DNA from: a virus | Strand: one strand, 5' to 3' | Length of the DNA stretch: 64,000 nt | IMG/VR virus record: IMGVR_UViG_3300010883_008292 | Coordinates: 1-64,000 of that record | Shown here: positions 28,609 through 57,369 of the stretch, one piece after another | Numbering within the stretch: the stretch's first letter is position 1 | Layout: each line of letters begins with the position of its first letter | Notes under the pieces: model-generated | Database searches by the model: none | Told to the model about the DNA's origin: nothing | What the model saw: only the letters and a program-made list of their open reading frames with translations | Program-made: the position numbers and the translations under genes

Positions 28609-29037
28609 ATGGCGTATAGTAAGAAAGTAATAGATAGATTCGAATCGGTATTAAACAACCCACACAAACACGCAGTTGGCAGATTTGATCCTAATGATCC
28701 AGATGTAGCTACAGGAATGACAGGAGCCCCAGCATGTGGTGATGTCATGAAGTTAGATCTTAAATTAGATCCCGAAACGGATACAATTTTAGATGTGAAA
28801 TTTAAGACTTATGGTTGTGGCTCAGCAATAGCGAGCTCAACATTGTTTGTGGAGATGCTTAAGGGTAGGACTATTGAACAAGCTAAACTTATTAAAGATA
28901 AGGATATAGCTAAAGCACTAGAATTACCAGCCATTAAGTTACATTGTTCTGTATTAGCAGAAGCTAGTATTAATCAAGCAATCACACATTGGGAACAGAA
29001 GAAAGAGGCTCGTAACCATAACGGAGGACCTGAGTGA
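28609..29037 (+). CDS. iscU: IscU-type iron-sulphur cluster scaffold
   Basis: 142 residues with the full IscU ligand set: C43 and D45 in PACGDVM, C70 in YGCGSAIASS, and H112/C113 in KLHCSVLAE. Bacterial IscU builds [2Fe-2S] clusters from cysteine desulphurase sulphur and passes them on. The chaperone-binding LPPVK of bacterial IscU is LPAIK here, so HscA dependence may differ. Its stop overlaps the A-type carrier gene. It could supply clusters to phage radical SAM enzymes or restore host clusters late in infection. Confidence 0.92.
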   Translation: MAYSKKVIDRFESVLNNPHKHAVGRFDPNDPDVATGMTGAPACGDVMKLDLKLDPETDTILDVKFKTYGCGSAIASSTLFVEMLKGRTIEQAKLIKDKDIAKALELPAIKLHCSVLAEASINQAITHWEQKKEARNHNGGPE

Positions 29038-29354
29038 ATATAGATTTTACTGATGATGCTCTGGTGAAAGCTATAGAAAAGATAGAAACAAATAATAAAG
29101 CAGGCATACGCTTTGCTTTAGACGGTGGCGGGTGTGCAGGATATCAATATGATTTTAATTATGCTGATGGGCCTGAAGAGAGTGATGTTGAACTTGATTT
29201 TGGAAAATTTAAGATGTGGATAGATGCAATGTCAGAAAATTATTTAGATGGTACAGTTATCAGTTGGAAAAAAGAAGGATTAAACGAAGGGTTTCATTTT
29301 AATAACCCATCAGAAGTATCATCATGTGGGTGTGGAGTATCAGTACAATTTTAA
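29034..29354 (+). CDS. A-type iron-sulphur carrier (IscA/ErpA-like)
   Basis: 106 residues, GTG start overlapping the IscU stop with an upstream GGAGG site. The three conserved cysteines are present: C34 in GGGCAGYQY and C98/C100 in SSCGCGVSV. These proteins receive and deliver clusters to apo-enzymes. Together with IscU it forms a minimal assembly pair; no cysteine desulphurase is seen in the window, so the host must supply sulphur. Confidence 0.88.
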   Translation: MNIDFTDDALVKAIEKIETNNKAGIRFALDGGGCAGYQYDFNYADGPEESDVELDFGKFKMWIDAMSENYLDGTVISWKKEGLNEGFHFNNPSEVSSCGCGVSVQF

Positions 29355-43889: not shown

Positions 43890-44478
43890 ACCAATTCAAA
43901 ACCAAGCGCCAAACACAAGCAATGCGTATGAAAAACCAGTAGCCCGAATCTTTGATTTTTATATCTCAGGAGACATAAAAGAATCAAAAGAGTATCAAGA
44001 CTGGAATCAGATGATGAGAAACTCAACTGAAAATGATGCAGTTATAATCCATATAAACTCTAACGGGGGAGATATATTTGCAGCAATACAGCTAATGAAA
44101 ACAATGTCTGAAAGCCCATCAACTATTATAGCATCCGTAGAAGGTATGTGTATGTCAGCAGCAACACTTATATTCTTATGTGCAGATGTGTGTGAAGTCT
44201 CAGAACATAGTCACTTCATGTTCCATACTTACAGTTCAGGCAACTGGGGTAAAGGAAACGAACAATTAGCCTCAGTTATTGCAGACGATAAGTGGGCTAG
44301 ACATTTATTTAATTCAGCTTACAAAGGATTTTTAGATCCAAAAGAGATAAATGAGATGATCGATGGGAAAGACTTTTGGATGGACCCAACAGAAGTTAAG
44401 AAGAGATTAGAAAAAAGAAATAAAGTAGCTAAAAGAAAGCAAAATAAGAAAGCAAAAGCGATCAGAGGTATTAAATGA
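43876..44478 (+). CDS. clpP: ClpP-like serine protease
   Basis: 200 residues of the ClpP/crotonase fold. HINSNGGDIFAAI precedes the nucleophile S94 in GMCMSAATLI, and the histidine is H117 in SHFMFHTYS. The C-terminus is a basic tail (KKRLEKRNKVAKRKQNKKAK) not found in housekeeping ClpP. It may join host Clp ATPases to degrade host or phage proteins, or process virion precursors. It overlaps the exported-protein gene by 4 nt. Confidence 0.85.
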   Translation: MSESKPIQNQAPNTSNAYEKPVARIFDFYISGDIKESKEYQDWNQMMRNSTENDAVIIHINSNGGDIFAAIQLMKTMSESPSTIIASVEGMCMSAATLIFLCADVCEVSEHSHFMFHTYSSGNWGKGNEQLASVIADDKWARHLFNSAYKGFLDPKEINEMIDGKDFWMDPTEVKKRLEKRNKVAKRKQNKKAKAIRGIK

Positions 44479-44777
44479 TTAAACAATATTGGAAAATTAC
44501 ATTCATAAGTTTATTTGTATTGGCATTGATGGTATATTCATCAACAGCAAATGCTAATAAGACAACAGATGATATTTTAAAGGCATTTGTAGTTTATAAA
44601 ATCGCTACAGAAATTGATAAGAAACAACCCTTTAAAGGAAAAGAACCTCCCTGTGCAAGAGCAGGCGCTAAGTGGGTACCAGGTGTACTCCCTGGAGAAC
44701 GAGGTAGAGTTATAAGATATCCAGTATGTCCTAACTTAATGATGCCATACGGAGGGTTAATTAAGGTTAAGAAATAA
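44475..44777 (+). CDS. Small exported (periplasmic) protein
   Basis: 100 residues with a clear Sec signal: basic start MIKQYWK, hydrophobic core ITFISLFVLALMVY and a likely cut after TANA (residue 27). The mature part is about 73 residues, with two cysteines (PPCARAG and YPVCPNL) able to form a disulphide and a basic end. I do not recognise it. It overlaps clpP and touches the TonB-dependent receptor gene by one base, so it may be a partner of that receptor. Confidence 0.7.
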   Translation: MIKQYWKITFISLFVLALMVYSSTANANKTTDDILKAFVVYKIATEIDKKQPFKGKEPPCARAGAKWVPGVLPGERGRVIRYPVCPNLMMPYGGLIKVKK

Positions 44778-46345
44778 TGAGAGCGTTTATAATGATGTTG
44801 GTGGTATTACTTCCCACCATAGGACTAGCAGAAGTAGAAGAAATAATAGTAGTAGGATCAAAAGTTTCAACTGGATATTCAGATCCAGCACACGACAACT
44901 CTGCAATAGAAGGAGTTGAATCAACAAAAGTTTATACTCCAGGCGGCCCTGGAGGGTTTACAGCAGTAGGCTTAAACGGCACAGACTCAAAACACACAGC
45001 AGTATATAGAAATGGAGTACCTGTTAACGATCCATCAGCAGGTTGGTATGATTTTGGAATAGACTTACCTGCGTGGCAAGACTATAAGAAAATTACAGGA
45101 CCTAATAGTGTATTGTTTGGAAGCTCCTCAATGGCAGGAACGATTCTTATAGAAGATACATTTGAAAAACATGTTTTTTATAAGGGAGGAGACTCATCAC
45201 AGTTCATAACAGGTGGCAATGAATGGTTTCAAATAGCAAGGTACAAAGGATCAATAGGATCTGTAAAGACAACAAACACAGAGGAAGATTGGTATGATAA
45301 TACAACACTTAAAACCAAAGCAAATTATGCTGGCTTCGATGTTGTTATGGTGTCTCAAGATTATTCTTACGACTATGATGATTGTTTACCTAGTTCTATT
45401 GAATATAATGATTGTAATCAGTCTGGATATAAAACCGATATATCTATTAGGAATGATTGGTTAACATTAGGATACAATTTAAATGCCGCTGAACATAATA
45501 CAGGCTGGGGCACTAAAAGTTCTAGACTATTTGCAGATGCGAAGTACAAATATAAGAATTTCTTAACAGGTGTAACAGCACAACAAGAAGATTATGATTT
45601 CTATTTTAGATCACCCGTCCCTTTAAGATATAATGATTGGAGAGCAGGTGTTTATTTTAATTGGTCTACAGAACAAACAGCACCCGAAAGATCATCTGTA
45701 ATTCCATACAAACTTGGAATAGGTTATCGTTATGAAGACGATGTTCAAACAGGTAGAGTGGGTGTAGAAGTAAATGACTTTAGAGTCTCATTAGGAAATA
45801 GCTATAGGGTTCCAAACTTATACGAACGCTATGGAGACGAGTTAGTAAAACCCAATCCACTTTTAGATGCTGAGAAGGGAGTAGGATTAGAAGTTGGTTG
45901 GAAAGACTTAACGGTTTGGCATTATGATTTTAGCAATGGAATAGATTTCAATTTTGCTGATTACCAATACATAAACACAGGCAAGTATCAATCTTCAGGG
46001 ATTACTTTCAGTACGTCAATTAAAAACATTGATGTGATGTTAAAGTACACAGACACAGACAAACTTCAAGCAGCCAAGTATAAGACTAAGCTGTCATACT
46101 CAGACATGTTTGGCAAAATAGATTGGGCCGTATCTTATGTGGGTGAGTTTGATAAAGGTTTGGACTGGGCAGGCCGTCCCATAGATGATGTATCAACCTT
46201 AGACCTAACTCTAGGCTACTACCTGGGCTCAAGATACAGGGTCGGCCTCCAGATTAGGGACGTTTTCAACAAAAAGTTTGAAATCTTACCAGAATATGCA
46301 GCAGGTGGGCGACAATTCCTCATATCTTTTGACTTAACCTTGTAA
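44777..46345 (+). CDS. TonB-dependent outer-membrane receptor, BtuB-like
   Basis: 522 residues, shorter than most such receptors (600-750). A signal peptide (residues 1-18, MRAFIMMLVVLLPTIGLA) is followed by a TonB-box-like EEIIVVGSK. A plug domain has YRNGVPVNDPSAGWYDFGID and KKITGPNSVLFGSSSMAGTI, very like the BtuB plug. From about residue 130 the chain alternates like a beta barrel, with SYRVPNLYERYG and a C-terminal strand QFLISFDLTL that ends in Leu rather than the usual Phe. Homology suggests uptake of a scarce metal complex, cobalamin or similar. The neighbouring cobT/cobS-like genes make cobalamin tempting but do not prove it. Confidence 0.85.
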   Translation: MRAFIMMLVVLLPTIGLAEVEEIIVVGSKVSTGYSDPAHDNSAIEGVESTKVYTPGGPGGFTAVGLNGTDSKHTAVYRNGVPVNDPSAGWYDFGIDLPAWQDYKKITGPNSVLFGSSSMAGTILIEDTFEKHVFYKGGDSSQFITGGNEWFQIARYKGSIGSVKTTNTEEDWYDNTTLKTKANYAGFDVVMVSQDYSYDYDDCLPSSIEYNDCNQSGYKTDISIRNDWLTLGYNLNAAEHNTGWGTKSSRLFADAKYKYKNFLTGVTAQQEDYDFYFRSPVPLRYNDWRAGVYFNWSTEQTAPERSSVIPYKLGIGYRYEDDVQTGRVGVEVNDFRVSLGNSYRVPNLYERYGDELVKPNPLLDAEKGVGLEVGWKDLTVWHYDFSNGIDFNFADYQYINTGKYQSSGITFSTSIKNIDVMLKYTDTDKLQAAKYKTKLSYSDMFGKIDWAVSYVGEFDKGLDWAGRPIDDVSTLDLTLGYYLGSRYRVGLQIRDVFNKKFEILPEYAAGGRQFLISFDLTL

Positions 46346-46453: not shown

Positions 46454-48910
46454 TTGAACCAAATACAATCCAAATCAATACTAGCCAAATGTTTAGCAAC
46501 AGAAGACATTTCAATAGTACATGATGCTAAAATGCCAACAGCGGCATTTGATGTCAAAGCAAGAACTTTATACCTCCCACAGTGGAAGGACATGTCTCCT
46601 GAACTCTATGACTTATTCATAGGACATGAGGTTGGACATGCTCATGAAACACCTGCAGAAGGATGGCATGACGCAGTATGTGATGACGTAAAAAAGAAAA
46701 ACTTCCTTAATGTAGTTGAAGACGTAAGGATTGAACGTAAGATTAAAGGTAGATATCCTGGCCTAGTTAGTAGGTTCTATAAAGGCTACAAAGAATTAGT
46801 TGATGGAGACTTTTTTGGAATAAAAGGTATAGACATTAACAAACTCCCATTAATTGATAGAGTGAACTTACATTATAAAGTAGGCCACATGATGGGAGTC
46901 AACTTTACTACTGAAGAACAAGATTTAGTTTCAAGGATAGGCAAAGCTGAAACTTGGAAGGACGTTGAAAGATTAGCTGATGAATTATTTGCAGCCAATA
47001 AGAAAGACGTTGAAGATAAAAAAGATGAATTAGAAAGCATGATTGATAAGATGATGCCTCAAAGATTCAAACAAGATCCTAACGGTGAAGAGCAACAAGA
47101 AGGTGAAGGCCAAGAATCCTCATCAGGTGATGAAGAAGAAGGCGACGAAGAAGAAACAGATTCATTTGGCGGCTCCGCTTCAGATGATGATGAAACTGAA
47201 GAAGAACAAGAAGCCAGAGAGGAAGCAGAACAACAGGCAAAACAAGATCAACGTGATAAGGATTACGAAGAATGGTTGAACAAGACTCCTGAAGAACGTA
47301 AAGCAGACGAAGAAGCCAAAGAGAAAGCTCAAGAACAATTTAAAAAAGATCAAGAGCTTAAAAAGCAATTGGATAAACTTCAAGAAGCTTTAGACAATGA
47401 AGGGTCAGTTACTGACAATGCTTTCAGAGAAAATGAGCAGTCATTAGTAGATCAAAATGCACATGACGTAATATATGTTACGGCTCCAGATATTAATCCC
47501 GAAGAGTTTATTGTTCCAATGAACAAACTGTATAACTGGGACAAATCTATTAGCCTACAAACAGCCGCCAAGATTGGTGATCATTTTGAAAACGTGACCC
47601 TGGCAAATGATAAAGTCTATGAAGTAGCTACTAAGCTGTATGACAAGTGGAACAGAACACAGACACCTATCATTAATAGTATGGCACAACAATTTGAACT
47701 TAAAAAAGCAGCAACTGCTTATAAGAAAGCTTCAATAGCCAAGATGGGCAAGTTAAATGAGGATAAGCTTTGGGCTTATAAATTAACAGACGATCTATTT
47801 CAAAGAGCTATGATAGTACCCAACGGTAAAAACCATGGCATCCTAATGTTCGTAGACTTATCAGGAAGCATGTACAGACACATGTCAGGAACAGTAGATC
47901 AACTAATGAACGTGGCAGCATTTTGTAGAAAGGTCAACATACCATTTGATGCTTATGGTTTTAGCACTGCATCTAGATCAGATCGTGATGGAGAACAAAA
48001 CTGGTACGCAAAACATAAAGAAGAATTAAAAACTTTGGCTGAAGGCACTATGTCTATAGATGATCCTTCCTTTAGTTTAGTTCATATGTTGTCTTCAAAA
48101 TGTTCAAAGAACGAACACATTAACGCAATGAAATATTTAAGTGTCATGAAATGTGGTTGGGACGATAGAAGATACTATGATGATTATGAATCAGGTGAGA
48201 CTTGGGGCTATATTGAGAACCCATACTTTTGTTTGTCCAGTACACCACTTAACTCAACGATCATTGTAGGACAAAAGATAGCAAAAATATTTAGAAAGAA
48301 ATATAACGTTGAAATATTAAGCACAATATTTTTAACAGATGGTGGAGCAACAGACAGCTTAAATTATGTTACTCACTTAGACTATCATAAAGAACAAAGA
48401 GAAGAACCTTGTGTAAGAGGACTTTATAATGAAACACCAGCCATCAAAGACGGTAGCTCAACAACCGTCCTAGATCAAAGCCCGGACCGTTATAACAGAA
48501 GAGAAATGGCTACTCCAGCATTATTAGAGTGGTACAAGCTCAGCACAGGTTCCAGGATGATTAACTTCCACATTGTCGATGGTAAAAAGAATCAATTCTG
48601 GGAAGAGTTTAATAAAAACAACTGGATGGAGAAAGGTGATGAACCACACACTAGCTACCGTCCATCATATGAATGGAACGACAGTGAATGGAAAGATTGT
48701 AATAAGAATAAGTTTATGGTTGTTGAAGACAGATATGGATTTGAACAACGGTTCCTGATCAAAGGAAAGGACGCTCTTAAAATTCAGGACCAAGAATTGA
48801 ACGTTAGATCATCCAACAAGGGCGATTTGATGAGAGGATTTAGAGCTTTTAATAAAGGAAAGACAAATCAAAGGTTATTCTTAAACAAAATCATTGAGTT
48901 AGTAGCATAG
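46454..48910 (+). CDS. CobT-like von Willebrand factor A protein with HExxH motif
   Basis: 818 residues with a TTG start fixed by the conserved leader. Near the N-terminus IGHEVGHAHETP (H58, E59, H62) is a zinc-protease-type HExxH, followed by NVVEDVRIERKIKG. Residues about 210-310 are a Glu/Asp/Gln-rich low-complexity linker. The vWA domain has MIDAS VDLSGSMY (467-473) and IFLTDGGATD. Such proteins pair with MoxR-type AAA+ ATPases, here the next gene. In cobalt chelatase this is CobT, but no chelatase catalytic subunit is seen; a remodelling or proteolytic role is more likely. Confidence 0.8.
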   Translation: MNQIQSKSILAKCLATEDISIVHDAKMPTAAFDVKARTLYLPQWKDMSPELYDLFIGHEVGHAHETPAEGWHDAVCDDVKKKNFLNVVEDVRIERKIKGRYPGLVSRFYKGYKELVDGDFFGIKGIDINKLPLIDRVNLHYKVGHMMGVNFTTEEQDLVSRIGKAETWKDVERLADELFAANKKDVEDKKDELESMIDKMMPQRFKQDPNGEEQQEGEGQESSSGDEEEGDEEETDSFGGSASDDDETEEEQEAREEAEQQAKQDQRDKDYEEWLNKTPEERKADEEAKEKAQEQFKKDQELKKQLDKLQEALDNEGSVTDNAFRENEQSLVDQNAHDVIYVTAPDINPEEFIVPMNKLYNWDKSISLQTAAKIGDHFENVTLANDKVYEVATKLYDKWNRTQTPIINSMAQQFELKKAATAYKKASIAKMGKLNEDKLWAYKLTDDLFQRAMIVPNGKNHGILMFVDLSGSMYRHMSGTVDQLMNVAAFCRKVNIPFDAYGFSTASRSDRDGEQNWYAKHKEELKTLAEGTMSIDDPSFSLVHMLSSKCSKNEHINAMKYLSVMKCGWDDRRYYDDYESGETWGYIENPYFCLSSTPLNSTIIVGQKIAKIFRKKYNVEILSTIFLTDGGATDSLNYVTHLDYHKEQREEPCVRGLYNETPAIKDGSSTTVLDQSPDRYNRREMATPALLEWYKLSTGSRMINFHIVDGKKNQFWEEFNKNNWMEKGDEPHTSYRPSYEWNDSEWKDCNKNKFMVVEDRYGFEQRFLIKGKDALKIQDQELNVRSSNKGDLMRGFRAFNKGKTNQRLFLNKIIELVA

Positions 48911-48917
48911 ATAATGC

Positions 48918-48946
48918 TTGACTTATGGTTCTAAAGAGTGCATAAT
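48918..48946 (+). promoter_or_regulatory. Sigma70-like promoter P5 (cobS-like gene)
   Basis: TTGACT (48918-48923), 17-bp spacer with GGTT, CATAAT (48941-48946). It starts 8 bp after the upstream stop codon. Confidence 0.8.
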
Positions 48947-48979
48947 AGTAGTATAAACAATAAGAAGTGAGGACTTTAA
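48942..48979 (+). repeat. Conserved 38-nt leader, copy 3
   Basis: Third identical copy, followed by T and the ATG at 48981. The partner pair of vWA and AAA+ genes thus share the same leader. Confidence 0.85.
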
Positions 48980-48980
48980 T

Positions 48981-50165
48981 ATGAAACAGATAGATCGAGA
49001 ACGTTTACAGGAAAAATTACAAGCCGAGGATAATGGTACAAGTGTTTTTACTCGTAAACAAATTATAGAAATAGCCACTGGACTAGGAATTGGATTCCCA
49101 GCCTGGCTTCTTAATAAACCAACCTTTAAAGTAGACAGAGGCGTGTACAATTTGGCACCCATGTTTCAAGGTTCAGGTTTGAATGTTGCAACAGCTCCAG
49201 TGGCAGCTCCTAGAGTTCCACTTGAAGTAGTTCAAACACAGCTTCCAGCAGAGCTTGTCCAAGCTAAGCTTAGGGTTGATGTCGAAGATCTTATCCCACC
49301 AAAGGATAAAACATTCGTACCCTTTGGTTTTTACAAAGATTTGAAAAAGGTGTTACAAGGTAACATGTTTTATCCAATATTCATTAGTGGCTTATCAGGC
49401 AATGGTAAAACCACAATGGCAGAACAAGTATGTGCAGCTCTTAAAAGAGAAGCCATACGAGTAAACGTTAGTATTGAAACCGACGAGGACGATTTGATCG
49501 GTGGTAATACTTTAATTGATGGTAACGTTGTCTATAGGGAAGGGCCCGTCCTCACCGCGATGAAGCGGGGTGCTGTTCTCATACTTGATGAAATTGATAG
49601 GGGTTCAAACAAGTTGATGTGCTTACAAGCCATCCTTGAGGGGAAGCCTTATTTCAACAAGAAGACAGGCGAAACCATAACTCCTGTTCCCGGCTTCAAC
49701 ATAGTGGCAACCGCCAATACGAAGGGTCGAGGATCAGATGATGGCAAATTCATAAGTGCCAATATACTCGACGAGGCATTCCTGGAAAGGTTTGCGATCA
49801 CCGTGGAGCAGGAGTACCCTACAATGTCTACGGAGAAGAAAATAGTTATCAAGAAAATGGAAAAAGTGAATAACGTAGACGAAGGTTTTGCTACTCACTT
49901 AGTTACATGGTCCGACGTAATAAGAAAAACTTACTACGAAGGAGCTATTGATGAGCTAATTTCAACACGTAGATTGGAGCACATCGTGAACGCTTATGCA
50001 GTTTTTGGAGACAAAAAGAAAGCAGTTCAACTATGTGTTAATAGATTTGATGATGATACTAAAACAGCATTCATCGACTTGTACACTAAGGTGGATCCAA
50101 CAGTAGAGCTTGAAGAGAAAGAGGAAACTGAACAGGAAATACATGAGGACTACAATGACGAATAG
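48981..50165 (+). CDS. CobS/MoxR-like AAA+ ATPase
   Basis: 394 residues. Walker A GLSGNGKTT (137-145), Walker B LILDEID (200-206), a sensor-1-like IVATANTKG and an ILDEAFLERFAI arginine-finger region. The N-terminus has a helix-rich IATGLGIGFPAWLL domain typical of CobS-like phage proteins. It is likely the motor partner of the vWA protein. A local GC-rich patch covers about 49540-49810. Confidence 0.85.
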   Translation: MKQIDRERLQEKLQAEDNGTSVFTRKQIIEIATGLGIGFPAWLLNKPTFKVDRGVYNLAPMFQGSGLNVATAPVAAPRVPLEVVQTQLPAELVQAKLRVDVEDLIPPKDKTFVPFGFYKDLKKVLQGNMFYPIFISGLSGNGKTTMAEQVCAALKREAIRVNVSIETDEDDLIGGNTLIDGNVVYREGPVLTAMKRGAVLILDEIDRGSNKLMCLQAILEGKPYFNKKTGETITPVPGFNIVATANTKGRGSDDGKFISANILDEAFLERFAITVEQEYPTMSTEKKIVIKKMEKVNNVDEGFATHLVTWSDVIRKTYYEGAIDELISTRRLEHIVNAYAVFGDKKKAVQLCVNRFDDDTKTAFIDLYTKVDPTVELEEKEETEQEIHEDYNDE

Positions 50166-50897: not shown

Positions 50898-51656
50898 ATG
50901 AGCGAAAGTGTAACTTACAATGTAGATGGCCACGTCGCAGTTTTAACTATACACGGCGAAGGTCCTGTAAATATTTTACAAAAACCCTTTTACCAAGGAT
51001 ACAATGACGCCCTAGTTCAATTCAGAGATGATGATACTAGGGTTCTTGTTATACAATCAGGCAATCCCAATCATTTCACAGCAGGCTTTGATGTCGCAGG
51101 TTTACTGCCAGGCATGAGAGATGGAAGTGTTGGTACCACAATAACAGATGGCGACATGGTAACACCAAAGCCTATTGTGGTATCTATTAAAGGTGTCTGT
51201 GTAGGAGAGGGTTTTGGAATAATGTTAGCGGGTGATTTTGTTTTTGCAGATGAGGGTAGCATATTTAAATGTCCTGAAGTTACACTAGGATTTAATGCAG
51301 TCACCATGCAAGTAAAATTAGCTCAAAGAATAGGACATGCTAGAGCCATGGAGTTTATGACTCTAGGTGAGGCACATGATGTAGAATGGTTAGACAAAGT
51401 AGGCCTTTGTACTCAAAGATGTTCAGGCGACTCCGATGAGAGAGCTTTAGCATACGCACATCGTATAGCCACAGAGTGTGGACCAATTGCTGTAAGGGGT
51501 ACTAAGGGAGCAGTATGGCATACATTAAACTCTAATATGGATGAGGCTGTTGACTTTGCTCTTTGGGCTAAGGACCTTTGTTTAGAATCAAAGGATGCTG
51601 AAGAAGGCATAGCAGCATTTTATGAAAAGAGGCCACCGGTTTTTAATAATGAATAG
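50898..51656 (+). CDS. Enoyl-CoA hydratase/isomerase-family (crotonase) protein
   Basis: 252 residues with a full crotonase fold. The first oxyanion-hole segment is HFTAGFDV (59-66), the second KGVCVGEGFGIMLAGD (98-113). Aligning on D113, the first catalytic glutamate of enoyl-CoA hydratase (rat E144) is Gly107, while the second (E164) is kept as E127 in KCPEVTLGF. One-acid members usually act as isomerases or on other CoA thioesters. It could alter host fatty-acid breakdown or membrane lipids late in infection. A phage-borne crotonase is unusual. Confidence 0.88.
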   Translation: MSESVTYNVDGHVAVLTIHGEGPVNILQKPFYQGYNDALVQFRDDDTRVLVIQSGNPNHFTAGFDVAGLLPGMRDGSVGTTITDGDMVTPKPIVVSIKGVCVGEGFGIMLAGDFVFADEGSIFKCPEVTLGFNAVTMQVKLAQRIGHARAMEFMTLGEAHDVEWLDKVGLCTQRCSGDSDERALAYAHRIATECGPIAVRGTKGAVWHTLNSNMDEAVDFALWAKDLCLESKDAEEGIAAFYEKRPPVFNNE

Positions 51657-53343: not shown

Positions 53344-53526
53344 ATGAATGAAGATAATTTAGAGGTAACTCTAAGAGAAGCCACCAACGGATGGATCGTT
53401 GAGTTTAATAGGTTTGGAGAAACCATAGAGTACATCTTTACTCGTCCCAACCCAGCAATATCGCTTGTCAGAAAAGTAATGAAGGGTGAGTTAGATATTT
53501 TTAATAGAGACGAAGCAGATGAGTAG
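53344..53526 (+). CDS. Hypothetical small protein between gp45 and peroxiredoxin
   Basis: 60 residues, an antiparallel beta start (NLEVTLREATNGWIVEFNRFG) and an acidic helical end. It overlaps the peroxiredoxin gene by 8 nt. I do not recognise it; T4 has RpbA near this position, but there is no visible similarity. Confidence 0.55.
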   Translation: MNEDNLEVTLREATNGWIVEFNRFGETIEYIFTRPNPAISLVRKVMKGELDIFNRDEADE

Positions 53527-54139
53527 GTTACCAGAACAAATACCACAAGCAACCTTTCATAAAAGGCTGATGCTGACATCAGGTGAAGAAAAATGGGTTA
53601 CATTAACAACGGATGATCTTTTTAAAGATAAGACCGTAATAGTTTTTGCCTTACCTGGAGCATTTACACCTACATGTTCAGGACAACAGCTTCCTGGATT
53701 TGAAAATTTGTATAGTGAGTTTAGAGAACTAGGCATAGATGACATCTATTGCATTAGTGTTAATGACACATTCGTTATGGAAGAGTGGAGAGATAAACAA
53801 GGAATTGTAAACGTTAAGCTGATACCAGATGGTAGTGGCGAGTTTACAATTAAAATGGGCATGGATGTTCGTAAAGACAACCTAGGTTTCGGAATGAGGT
53901 CCTGGAGATATGCTGCAGTAGTAACTGACGGCACAATAGTCAAGTCCTTTATTGAAGAAGGCTTCCAAGACAATGCAGAAGCAGATCCTTATGACGTTAG
54001 TACACCTGAAAATGTATTACAGTCCGTACAAGAAGCGGTAAAAGAAGTAACTTTTATAGACGACGTGTATGATAGTGTCGGTACTAATATAGAACTGAAC
54101 TTTACAGATACGACTTCTGTTAAGGAGAAATTTGGATAG
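53519..54139 (+). CDS. Peroxiredoxin (Prx5-like)
   Basis: 206 residues. The peroxidatic cysteine is C53 in LPGAFTPTCSGQQLPG, the Prx5/AhpC-like motif PxxxTxxC, and the usual arginine is in FGMRSWRYA. It reduces hydrogen peroxide or alkyl peroxides using thiol partners such as the phage glutaredoxin. The C-terminal 40 residues extend beyond the core. It lies within the early replication operon. Confidence 0.9.
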   Translation: MSRLPEQIPQATFHKRLMLTSGEEKWVTLTTDDLFKDKTVIVFALPGAFTPTCSGQQLPGFENLYSEFRELGIDDIYCISVNDTFVMEEWRDKQGIVNVKLIPDGSGEFTIKMGMDVRKDNLGFGMRSWRYAAVVTDGTIVKSFIEEGFQDNAEADPYDVSTPENVLQSVQEAVKEVTFIDDVYDSVGTNIELNFTDTTSVKEKFG

Positions 54140-54193: not shown

Positions 54194-55132
54194 ATGAAAC
54201 CAGAACAATTTTTATGGGTTGAAAAATACCGTCCACATAATATACAAGACTGTATATTGCCCGATGATGTAAAAACAACTTTTCAGCAGTTTATTGCTAA
54301 AAAGGAAATCCCTAACTTACTATTAAGTGGTTCAGCAGGAACCGGTAAAACAACCCTAGCGCGTGCATTGTGCGAAGAACTTGGTTGTGACTATATAGTT
54401 ATTAATGGTAGTGATGAGGGTAGGCAGATAGATACCTTAAGAACTAAGATCCGAGGATTTGCATCAGCAGTATCTTTTGAGGGTAAGACTAAGGTAGTTA
54501 TACTCGACGAGGCTGACTATTTGAACAGAGAAAGTGTTCAACCAGCACTACGGGCGTTCATAGAGAACTTTTCGTCGAATTGTAGGTTTATCTTTACTTG
54601 TAACTATATAAATAGACTTATTACACCGTTGCACAGTAGAACGACTGTAGTGGACTTCAAAATAACCCCTGCAGACCGCCCTCAGCTCGCTGCTAAGTTC
54701 CTTCAAAGGATGCAGTATATCCTTACTAATGAAGGAGTTGAGTACTCTGAGAAAGTGTTAGCGGAGCTCTTAATGAAGTATTTTCCTGATTATCGTAGGG
54801 TCATAAATGAACTACAAAGGTACTCAGTAGCAGGAAAAATAGATGAGGGTGTACTAAGTAACTTCCAGGAAATCAACGCTAAGCAGCTCATAGAGAGCCT
54901 TAGGGACAAAGATTGGAAGAAGATGAGACAGTGGGTAGCCAATAATGTGGATACTGACCCTCAGGGTATATTTAGACAGATATACGATACACTAATACCC
55001 GAAGTTAAGTTTGTTTCACAGCTAGTAGTCTTAATTGCCGAATATCAGTATAAAGCGGCCTTTGTAGCAGATCAAGAAATTAACCTAACTGCGTGTTTGA
55101 CAGAAATCATGGCAAATGTGGATTTTGAATGA
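54194..55132 (+). CDS. gp44: Clamp loader large subunit gp44-like
   Basis: 312 residues (T4 gp44 319). FLWVEKYRPHNIQDCILPDD at the N-terminus, Walker A GSAGTGKTT (46-54), DEAD box (105-108) and an SRC-like PLHSRTTVVDF. It opens and loads gp45 with gp62. In T4 gene 62 follows directly; here about 1.8 kb of inserted genes separate them. Confidence 0.95.
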   Translation: MKPEQFLWVEKYRPHNIQDCILPDDVKTTFQQFIAKKEIPNLLLSGSAGTGKTTLARALCEELGCDYIVINGSDEGRQIDTLRTKIRGFASAVSFEGKTKVVILDEADYLNRESVQPALRAFIENFSSNCRFIFTCNYINRLITPLHSRTTVVDFKITPADRPQLAAKFLQRMQYILTNEGVEYSEKVLAELLMKYFPDYRRVINELQRYSVAGKIDEGVLSNFQEINAKQLIESLRDKDWKKMRQWVANNVDTDPQGIFRQIYDTLIPEVKFVSQLVVLIAEYQYKAAFVADQEINLTACLTEIMANVDFE

Positions 55133-55302
55133 CAAAAGATTATAATGAAGCAGGCAAGGCAACTGCAAGAATTGATATTCGCGTTCCCAAAGAATTAAAA
55201 GCGGAATTAAAGGCAGAAGCGAAAAAACGTAAAATCTCTATAACTGAGCTTTTGCTCGAGAGTTACAGAGAATCAAAAGAGAAAGATTTTGGTTTTAACT
55301 AG
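55129..55302 (+). CDS. Ribbon-helix-helix-like small protein (57 residues)
   Basis: 57 residues with the Arc/CopG pattern: a beta strand ATARIDIRVPKELKAELKAEA followed by two helices (KKRKISITELLLESYRES). It overlaps the gp44 stop by 4 nt and is 11 nt before the cytochrome gene. It could be the DNA-binding regulator of the inserted cytochrome cluster. Confidence 0.7.
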   Translation: MTKDYNEAGKATARIDIRVPKELKAELKAEAKKRKISITELLLESYRESKEKDFGFN

Positions 55303-55313
55303 AGGATCCAAAA

Positions 55314-56594
55314 ATGAAAACCTTAATAGGCGTAATAGCAGTTACACTATTACTGGTATTTGCCAGTAAAGTTTATTCTGATGAAGTAACCTACGTTGAT
55401 GAAATCTCATCAATAATTAATAATAATTGTGTTGTATGTCACCGTCAAGGTGGTATAGGTCCAATGAGTTTTGAGTCTTATGATCAAATAAGGCCATGGG
55501 CACCACTGATTTCATACAAAGTAATGACAAGAGAAATGCCACCATATGCGTATGATCACGGCATTGGCATTCAAGACTTACAAGGCGACTGGAGATTATC
55601 TCAAAAGGATATAGACACAGTAGTTGAGTGGGTAGACCAAGGAGCAACATATGGCAATAGAGACATTGTAATACAGCGCCCTGAATTAAGAGATTTAGAT
55701 GCATGGAGTTTTGAGGCTGACTTTGGCCGTCCAAACTTAGTAATCCCATCAATACCTATAGACATTCCAGCCAGTGGAAATGATATGTGGCATAAACATC
55801 TTGTACCTTCTGGACTTACAGAGGATAGATGTATTAAAGCAATACAAGTTAAACCACGAGGGGAAGCTAAAGCTGTAGTCCATCACGCTAATTCTAATAT
55901 TATATTAGATGGTGAACGGCAAGGTGGAATGCTTACTGAATATGCAATGGGTAAGTGGGGCGAAGTAGTCCCTGATGGAGTTTGTAGAACATTTCCAGCG
56001 AACTCACAAGTGCGTTGGGATATTCATATGTTTCCAGGTGGAGTAGGAGCTACTGCACAAGGAGAAATGGTTAAGGATAATGTTGTTGAAATTGGCCTAT
56101 GGTTTCATGAGCCAGGATTTGAGCCAAAGTATAAGCAAGATTTAAGTTTATATAGGCTAGGAGATCAGGCTGATATAGTTATTCCGCCTAATGGATATTA
56201 CATGACACAAGGGTTTCAATCTTTTGATCACCCTGTAAGAATAGACAGTTGGCAACCACATGGACATTTAAGAATGAACGCTGCTAGTTTGGAAATTTTC
56301 CATCCTGAAACAGGACGTACTGAAGAAATAAGCCAAGTATCAAATTGGAGCGCCACCTGGCATCACAGTCATATATTTGCTCCAGGGGCTGCACCATTAT
56401 TGCCTACAGGATCAGTTTTAATAATGAAACAATGGTACGACAACACAAGCGACAATCCTAATAATCCAGACCCAGATATGTGGGTAGTTGGTGGTAGTAG
56501 AACAGGCGATGAGATGACTCATAACTGGATGGCTATTACCCATTTGGACGACGAGGGTTACAATAAACTAAAGGAAAAACGAGATAATATTTAA
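55314..56594 (+). CDS. Secreted cytochrome c fused to a copper type II monooxygenase-like domain
   Basis: 426 residues. A signal peptide (about 1-22) is followed by a monohaem cytochrome c domain with CVVCH (39-43) and a likely axial methionine in REMPPY (M75). Residues 150-410 match copper type II, ascorbate-dependent monooxygenases such as peptidylglycine hydroxylating monooxygenase. Candidate ligands are all present: H190/H191 in VVHHAN, H238 in DIHM, H316/H318 in QPHGHLR and M371 in LIMKQW. DNTSDNPNNPDPD is also conserved in bacterial relatives. It should act in the periplasm, with haem passing electrons to copper. The substrate is unknown. An AGAGGA ribosome site precedes the ATG. Confidence 0.85.
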   Translation: MKTLIGVIAVTLLLVFASKVYSDEVTYVDEISSIINNNCVVCHRQGGIGPMSFESYDQIRPWAPLISYKVMTREMPPYAYDHGIGIQDLQGDWRLSQKDIDTVVEWVDQGATYGNRDIVIQRPELRDLDAWSFEADFGRPNLVIPSIPIDIPASGNDMWHKHLVPSGLTEDRCIKAIQVKPRGEAKAVVHHANSNIILDGERQGGMLTEYAMGKWGEVVPDGVCRTFPANSQVRWDIHMFPGGVGATAQGEMVKDNVVEIGLWFHEPGFEPKYKQDLSLYRLGDQADIVIPPNGYYMTQGFQSFDHPVRIDSWQPHGHLRMNAASLEIFHPETGRTEEISQVSNWSATWHHSHIFAPGAAPLLPTGSVLIMKQWYDNTSDNPNNPDPDMWVVGGSRTGDEMTHNWMAITHLDDEGYNKLKEKRDNI

Positions 56595-56707
56595 TGAAAG
56601 AAAATTTAAAACACTATGCACATATTGTTGTGGCAGTTGGGTGGTCAATGACAGTAGCATATATTGCCATAACATTACCGTTATGGATTATAGCCTTTGC
56701 TATATAG
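56594..56707 (+). CDS. Single-pass membrane micropeptide (37 residues)
   Basis: 37 residues: a charged N-terminus MKENLKHYAH and a hydrophobic segment IVVAVGWSMTVAYIAI continuing to the C-terminus. Its ATG overlaps the last base of the cytochrome-monooxygenase stop codon, so it is translationally coupled. It could anchor or help export the upstream protein. Confidence 0.55.
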   Translation: MKENLKHYAHIVVAVGWSMTVAYIAITLPLWIIAFAI

Positions 56708-56716
56708 GAAAAGAAA

Positions 56717-56908
56717 ATGAAAGCTAAATACTTATTAATGGTTACACTAACAGTCGTAGGATGCTCAGGCACAGTAAACGACCTTCCATATCATTGGGAA
56801 GATGGCATGCCACGTTTTGAATGGGTAGAGCCTGTTGTATTCCAAATGAATTTGGAAAGATGTAGACGCGCTACGGTTTGTAAAGCTGAAACATTATTTG
56901 ATAAATGA
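56717..56908 (+). CDS. Small lipoprotein
   Basis: 63 residues with a lipoprotein signal: MKAKYLLMVTLTVVGC, lipobox VVGC with C16 as the acylated residue. The mature part is about 48 residues with two further cysteines (RCRRATVC). It would be anchored in an envelope membrane. It overlaps gene 62 by 4 nt and forms an envelope module with the two genes before it. Confidence 0.7.
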   Translation: MKAKYLLMVTLTVVGCSGTVNDLPYHWEDGMPRFEWVEPVVFQMNLERCRRATVCKAETLFDK

Positions 56909-57369
56909 CTGACAAAGCAATATTAGAAGGATTCGGTGACCCTGTAGAAGAGGTCGTCGAAGATCAATTCCAGGAGAAATTGAAGAAAATCTCTCCGTTT
57001 GATTTTGTGAATTCCATTAACTTTACAAAAGAAGATTTAATGGTTGATGAGAGAACTGAGAATGAGTATAATGCTTTTATTGTAAATAGAGCAATGGGCA
57101 TGGGTCCTGATACAGTTATAGCAGGAAACGAAATGAACAGGTTTTCTCATATTGATAAAAAATTACAATATGATTTTTTGAGAGGAGTAGTAAGAAAGGC
57201 AAAACGATATAATAAATGGCTAAAATCTGAAGAGGAGAATATTGACGCGATACAACGATTTTTTGGCTACAGTTTTAATAAAGCAAAAGAGGCTTTAAGA
57301 CTTTTATCTGAAACAGATATAGACGTTATAAAACTGTACCTTAATACGTCAAAAGGTGGTAAAATATAA
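56905..57369 (+). CDS. gp62: Clamp loader small subunit gp62-like
   Basis: 154 residues (T4 gp62 187). Conserved segments are SPFDFVNSINFTKEDLM, YNAFIVNRAMGMGPDTVIAG, FSHIDKKLQYDFLRG and AKRYNKWLK. It completes the gp44/62 loader. It lies before regA as in T4. Confidence 0.85.
   Translation: MTDKAILEGFGDPVEEVVEDQFQEKLKKISPFDFVNSINFTKEDLMVDERTENEYNAFIVNRAMGMGPDTVIAGNEMNRFSHIDKKLQYDFLRGVVRKAKRYNKWLKSEEENIDAIQRFFGYSFNKAKEALRLLSETDIDVIKLYLNTSKGGKI

Follow-up and report, generated by a model that had tools for sequence, protein, structure and literature searches.

A predicted haem-fused, PHM-type copper monooxygenase encoded between clamp-loader genes of an uncultured T4-like phage

The window analysed here is a 64-kb stretch (positions 1 to 64,000) of IMGVR_UViG_3300010883_008292, an uncultured virus record of 76.6 kb that carries T4-like replication and structural genes (gp45, gp44, gp62, regA and others). 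As an earlier note on this DNA had described, with correct coordinates, the clamp-loader genes gp44 and gp62 are split by four open reading frames (ORFs; Table 1), which encode a ribbon-helix-helix (RHH) protein, a protein of 426 amino acids that we call C1, a 37-residue peptide and a lipoprotein of 63 amino acids. The C1 gene, which is the subject of this report, has an AGAGG Shine-Dalgarno sequence upstream. Reading frames overlap at three junctions (gp44/RHH, C1/37-residue peptide and lipoprotein/gp62), a layout as in a single operon. The upstream junction is the same in six contigs from other metagenomes, one of which (L001) is 100% identical and the others (L002-L006) 84-90% identical, and the downstream junction also matches in those of sufficient length. 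Because these junctions recur in separate metagenomes, a chimera of host and phage DNA, a concern raised in the earlier note, is excluded for practical purposes, and the translational overlaps point the same way. The C1 gene is genuine, beyond chance.

The only Pfam match of C1 was a sub-threshold one to cytochrome c (PF13442, 18.4 bits against a cut-off of 27). C1 had no match in PHROGs, PF03712 (copper type II monooxygenase, C-terminal) had no match in the virus record, and neither the single C1 protein nor a phage-only profile found anything useful when searched by sequence against the PDB. We modelled C1 with AlphaFold on 61 aligned sequences of relatives from phages and bacteria, and obtained a mean predicted local distance difference test score (pLDDT) of 85.8 and a predicted template modelling score (pTM) of 0.82. 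With phage sequences alone the pLDDT was 69, rising to 86 once the bacterial relatives were added. When the model of the 426-residue product was compared with the PDB by Foldseek, a check that the earlier note had proposed, every match from rank 1 to rank 31 was a peptidylglycine alpha-hydroxylating monooxygenase (PHM, the hormone-amidating type) or a dopamine beta-hydroxylase (DBH), with E 1.7e-11 to 1.5e-8 and probability 1.00, beyond which the matches dropped to unrelated beta-rich proteins. PF03712 matched in all 14 bacterial genomes that encode close relatives of C1, above the curated cut-off in 13 of them, and in none of 14 control genomes; many of the matching places coincide with further paralogues of the C1 family. 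A phage paralogue, C2, matches the same profile below the cut-off (E=0.0017). The model thus indicates that C1 is a two-domain beta-sandwich protein of the PHM/DBH superfamily. The earlier suggestion of a CxxCH cytochrome with a signal peptide, fused to a PHM-like copper domain and encoded by a real phage, is strongly supported by this fold, by the link to PF03712 and by the ligands described below.

Conservation of the predicted metal ligands (Table 1) was counted in 61 sequences, among them 43 short forms, besides long forms fused to a redoxin domain. The haem site is intact, as had been claimed, and the CVVCH motif (residues 39-43) is invariant in the relatives. Together with the predicted signal peptide, which is retained among the relatives even though its sequence varies, this motif gives C1 the combination of CxxCH and export signal that marks a c-type cytochrome. 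In a by-eye line-up with rat PHM (from the PDB), VVHH of C1 stands against TVHHML and DIHM (LQLHY in C2) against VLQVHY, while on the CuM side PHGH (PHMH in C2) stands against VHTHH and GDEM (SEDEM in C2) against SSDEM. Five of the six copper ligands named in the earlier note (H190, H191, H238, H316 and H318) are conserved. The sixth, M371, was rejected, as this position is Leu in 27, Ile in 13, Met in 2 and Thr in 1 of 43 sequences; because nearly all relatives have Leu or Ile there, we assign M401 as the predicted sixth ligand instead. E400 is likewise invariant in the 61 sequences. The long forms keep the CuH ligands and the methionine and have the H316/H318 pair replaced, and they do not retain four extra histidines (H306, H351, H353 and H403) that are invariant in C1.

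Table 1. Features of the clamp-loader region and predicted metal ligands of C1 (fractions give the sequences in which a residue is invariant)
Feature	Position	Strand	Evidence or remark
gp44 clamp-loader ATPase	54194..55132	+	PHROG_168 E=1.7e-120; Pfam Gp44_lid; upstream gene of operon
RHH (Arc/CopG-like) protein	55129..55302	+	PF01402 20.2 bits, cut-off 20.5; PHROG_582 5e-5
C1, secreted cytochrome c - PHM-type copper monooxygenase fusion (predicted), 426 aa	55314..56594	+	
C1 signal peptide, residues 1-22 (cleavage site estimated)	55314..55379	+	sequence; N-terminal helix in model
Haem c motif CVVCH (C39, C42, H43)	55428..55442	+	61/61
M75 of REMPPYAYD, candidate distal haem ligand	55536..55538	+	61/61
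H190, H191, predicted CuH ligands	55881..55886	+	61/61; VHH as in PHM TVHHML
H238, predicted third CuH ligand	56025..56027	+	61/61; C2 LQLHY, PHM VLQVHY
H316, H318 (PHGH), predicted CuM histidines	56259..56267	+	43/43 short forms, and in C2
M401 (GDEMTH), predicted CuM methionine	56514..56516	+	61/61; PHM motif SSDEM
37-residue membrane peptide ORF	56594..56707	+	doubtful part; only window and identical L001
63-aa lipoprotein, phage-only family, C1 partner	56717..56908	+	lipobox ... F-W ... CR....C.AE.LF
gp62 clamp-loader small subunit	56905..57369	+	PF16790 1.7e-14; PHROG_225 5e-39; downstream gene

C1 relatives are widespread among uncultured viruses. Our scan of 2.9 million viral contigs (IMG/VR) found at least 247 that encode one, and the 80 viral loci studied here (70-100% identical) are the best-scoring of the 247, not a random sample. 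None of 50,697 GenBank phage records matched C1, and BFVD held no model with its fold, giving generic beta-rich matches alone (TM-score, from template modelling, ≤0.26 by query length). In the literature, covered without most subscription journals and preprints, we found no viral PHM-like protein, no haem-fused one and no phage-only lipoprotein partner. The earlier view that such an enzyme lies outside normal phage repertoires therefore holds for annotated phages, with GenBank, PHROG and BFVD all negative, but not for uncultured marine phages. The neighbours of C1 vary by phage: the gene is found among gp44, RHH and gp62, directly after gp23 (PF07068, 6.9e-142), after gp32 (1e-41), after an M15 endolysin or beside a phage lysozyme, and also on contigs of 230-340 kb (jumbo phages), some of which have a terminase match. 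The T4-type late promoter word TATAAATA stands 33-40 nucleotides upstream of the C1 ATG in 13 of 77 viral loci, where about 0.0012 per locus would be expected by chance; these 13 loci are not independent, yet span at least three gene contexts. The window has no TATAAATA site shortly before C1, and the gene there lies inside the clamp-loader operon. Sigma-70 sites were not above chance, and an Rfam search gave no matches.

What accompanies C1 downstream falls largely into two kinds. Among 69 viral loci with enough sequence, the small lipoprotein follows in 25, C2 in 32, both in 1 and neither in 11, counts that are descriptive only, since the loci are related. The lipoprotein family, which has a lipobox and a conserved end (CR....C.AE.LF), occurs in 34 of the 80 viral loci and in no bacterial locus other than a phage-like one (L082). 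In each of 33 loci C2 has CxxCH and the six ligand motifs (the DEM motif in 32 of them). The nearest bacterial relatives of C2 show 48-54% identity in the part that they have in common with it; they possess an additional N-terminal stretch and total 562-595 amino acids. Phages without the lipoprotein mostly have C2, and a few have a separate cytochrome c, a candidate electron-transfer partner, which lies between C1 and C2 in five phage loci (family f62; PF00034, 3.6e-7, passing the Pfam cut-off). As read from gene content, the module is the oxygenase C1 with either the phage-only lipoprotein or the second predicted haem-copper oxygenase, C2.

The earlier note had drawn the module more widely, to include all four ORFs, of which only the oxygenase and the lipoprotein recur together in related phages. 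The 37-residue peptide is seen in the window and in L001 only, that is, in this phage population. The RHH gene is retained in the gp44-gp62 gap of L062, whose C1 gene sits elsewhere, after a P4H gene, and it is absent at other oxygenase loci; because it is kept there without C1, it is not tied to the oxygenase and probably belongs to the clamp-loader locus. We also considered that the peptide and the lipoprotein form a spanin pair and rejected this, given that the peptide is not conserved and that the lipoprotein, with its conserved end, occurs without it in relatives.

Some of these loci have further features of their own. L082 (PBPT01000016.1, 335 kb), from a Neomarinimicrobiota bin, resembles a large phage and has a clamp-loader homologue; its C1 is 90% identical to a viral copy and it has two tandem copies of the phage-only lipoprotein. 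An IscA-like gene lies just after C2 in loci of the L010/L048 type. Directly after C2 in L064 and L065 (about 6100-6840 in L065) is a putative lysis cassette, in which a coiled-coil membrane protein overlaps a lipoprotein in the manner of an Rz/Rz1 spanin pair.

The cellular loci, L081 and L082 excepted, belong to bins labelled Gammaproteobacteria, Pseudomonadales, Pseudohongiella, OM182, SAR86 or Proteobacteria. Fourteen bacterial genomes (G001-G012, G015, G016) encode 10-35 members of the haem-PHM family each, and the bacterial C1 relatives are chromosomal, with as many as six in tandem at one locus. Across 73 such loci, the clusters encode a GMC oxidoreductase with a gluconate-2-dehydrogenase-type subunit (Gluconate_2-dh3) in 16-17, a cupin in 27, an MFS-like transporter in 28 and a secreted protein of 317 amino acids in 48, a set of genes in keeping with organic compounds being first hydroxylated and then dehydrogenated. 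According to published genomes, these bacterial families have many oxygenases for terpenoid-, hydrocarbon- and aromatic-like compounds (PMC8371827). Some of the bacterial copies lie near NHL-propeller proteins, which were considered as partners of the PAL (amidating lyase) type and not adopted: they match PAL at E 9e-20 and other NHL proteins better, and so are a lead only.

In a tree of 89 sequences, all 38 sampled viral sequences form a single clade (support 97/100) whose sister is a marine gammaproteobacterium. The best reading of this tree is that marine phages acquired C1 once, from gammaproteobacteria of the Pseudohongiella/OM182 type. One bacterial sequence (L084) branches within the viral clade, even though its neighbours are those of the usual bacterial gene cluster. 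L085, L091 and L095 resemble it, and these four bacterial C1 copies are 81-84% identical to viral copies. The position of L084 suggests a likely return of the gene from phage to host. The composition of phage C1 (GC content 0.40, third-position GC 0.26) differs from that of the bacterial loci, which are mostly at 0.44-0.59. The ratio of nonsynonymous to synonymous substitution rates (dN/dS) is 0.12-0.19 at dS 0.35-0.84, indicating purifying selection. C1 is, in short, a host-derived metabolic gene that is maintained by selection in a true phage genome, as is expected of a phage auxiliary metabolic gene (AMG).

The window holds other genes of metabolic or host-related kind. A peroxiredoxin gene (53519-54139, + strand; PF08534, E=7e-27) lies between gp45 and gp44 and is kept in L001-L006 and L062. 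An ORF of 522 amino acids (44777-46345, +) has a TonB-dependent receptor plug domain (PF07715, E=1.8e-6) and is preceded by a secreted ORF of 100 amino acids (44475-44777); a phage-encoded outer-membrane receptor would be unusual. An enoyl-CoA hydratase/isomerase (50898-51656, +; PF00378, E=7.9e-28), whose metabolic role is unexpected in a phage, is 21-33% identical to proteins of the bacterial genomes searched. Searched for host clues in 16 genomes, this gene and the receptor gave weak general homology only, and a tRNA search found none. NifU/IscU-like and IscA-like iron-sulphur assembly genes are adjacent at 28609-29354 (+), and at 46454-50165 (+) an ORF of 818 amino acids is followed by an AAA+ ATPase, a CobT/CobS-like pair by appearance with Pfam matches for the ATPase only.

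PHM and DBH, the copper type II monooxygenases (PF01082/PF03712), share with C1 the fold and the ligand motifs HH, H, HxH and M in the same order, at about 11-16% identity in fold alignments. In these enzymes O2 binds at CuM and the second electron comes from CuH, and electrons must be delivered one at a time by an external donor, which is usually ascorbate. C1 differs in its N-terminal haem c domain, its occurrence in bacteria and phages, its few cysteines and its extra invariant histidines, and no ascorbate partner was seen. Much closer are the cytochrome c-PHM paralogues of the Pseudohongiella/OM182 type, which have the same architecture and are about 64-77% identical to C1 over the whole length; unlike phage C1 they come without the phage lipoprotein, and their long forms add a redoxin domain.

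On balance, we think it probable that C1 is a periplasmic, haem-fused copper monooxygenase, an AMG that phages gained once from gammaproteobacteria, which hydroxylates an organic substrate and is fed by respiratory cytochrome c. For its cofactor loading, electron route, reaction and benefit we infer the following course. C1 would be exported, and the host machinery would supply it with haem c and two coppers. Electrons would pass from the pool of respiratory c-type cytochromes to the C1 haem and on to CuH (H190/H191/H238), in place of ascorbate, and CuM (H316/H318/M401) would activate O2, leading to hydroxylation of a small organic substrate at a C-H bond. The product may feed host dehydrogenases of the kind found in the bacterial clusters (GMC oxidoreductase with gluconate-2-dehydrogenase-type subunit). 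Oxidation of an organic substrate, one of the roles suggested in the earlier note, would fit the bacterial gene context. Phage C1 might in this way keep the oxidation, electron or carbon flow of the host running during infection, while the small lipoprotein may tether or mature it.

Several points weigh against this account. C1 falls below the curated cut-offs of PF03712 and PF01082, its TM-scores against PHM are moderate (about 0.6 by target length), it is without most of the disulphide cysteines of PHM, and hhalign found no significant alignment between the A2 profile and the single rat PHM. By gp44, the closest isolate is Pelagibacter phage Mosig (59.9%), which infects Pelagibacter and not OM182. 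Moreover, lysis-gene neighbours and late promoters in some phages equally fit a late role in the envelope, in which the oxygenase (with the lipoprotein, C2 or cytochrome c) would have the host envelope or the virion as its target and serve to time lysis or to exclude other phages. C1 directly follows an M15 endolysin in six loci and in others lies near lysozyme, coiled-coil and lipoprotein (spanin-like) or holin-like ORFs; its late-type promoter and phage-only partner would also be in keeping with such a role. We nevertheless consider this unlikely: in the window C1 sits in a replication operon, many other loci are without lysis genes nearby, its close relatives are chromosomal genes of bacterial oxidation clusters, and known lysis genes need no oxygen chemistry. 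It is also conceivable, though we regard it as quite doubtful, that C1 hydroxylates no substrate and instead uses up O2 or reduces some other acceptor, as an electron sink, a peroxide source or a protection against copper or O2. The fused haem, the separate cytochrome c of some phages, the peroxiredoxin gene that immediately precedes gp44 in this operon and the extra histidines that the long forms lack would suit such chemistry. Against it stand the strict retention of the six monooxygenase ligands in C1 and C2, and the bacterial copies, whose association with dehydrogenases and transporters in multi-paralogue arrays fits varied substrates.

The contiguity and partial overlap of the four ORFs could be taken to favour an envelope module of all four genes, regulated by the RHH protein and having the 37-residue peptide as its membrane subunit, but with an RHH gene that persists without the oxygenase and a peptide confined to one population we find this very improbable. 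There is next to no chance that the locus is an assembly chimera or host DNA misclassified as viral: relatives of C1 do occur in bacteria and in no annotated phage, but the junctions are identical in six contigs from separate samples, frames overlap across them, gp23, gp32, terminase or gp44/gp62 share contigs with C1, and its GC content is phage-like. Bolder than the hydroxylating AMG that we favour, and deserving a limited credence, is the idea that phages operate their own periplasmic oxygenase system, in which C1 is combined either with a phage-invented lipoprotein or with both C2 and a small cytochrome c. This would be an exchangeable cassette across unrelated lineages, returned to bacteria at least once, and C1 would be a new haem-copper monooxygenase, perhaps with an extra metal site, that serves a phage-specific purpose beyond boosting a host pathway.

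Phages reportedly carry pmoC, a gene for a membrane copper monooxygenase subunit. Other phage-carried redox genes are soxC/soxD (PMC8190135) and nirK/norB (PMC8115048), for periplasmic enzymes, and amoC, for another membrane copper monooxygenase subunit (PMC8115048). Like C1, all of these are redox genes that phages of marine or aquatic habitats took from hosts, and some of the encoded proteins have haem c or copper; they belong to unrelated families and to known inorganic or methane pathways, whereas C1 is predicted to be a single-chain haem-copper monooxygenase. Periplasmic redox AMGs of phages are thus already known, and a haem-fused enzyme of PHM type, as predicted here, would be a little-studied type that is new to viruses in the literature covered. 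If the proposed function is correct, haem-fused PHM-type copper monooxygenases would join the genes by which ocean viruses alter the oxidation chemistry of their hosts. C1 also points to a large, paralogue-rich and uncharacterised oxygenase family in marine gammaproteobacteria, whose members, as small, soluble and self-wired relatives of PHM and DBH, may be useful for learning by which route electrons get to the two copper sites and across them.

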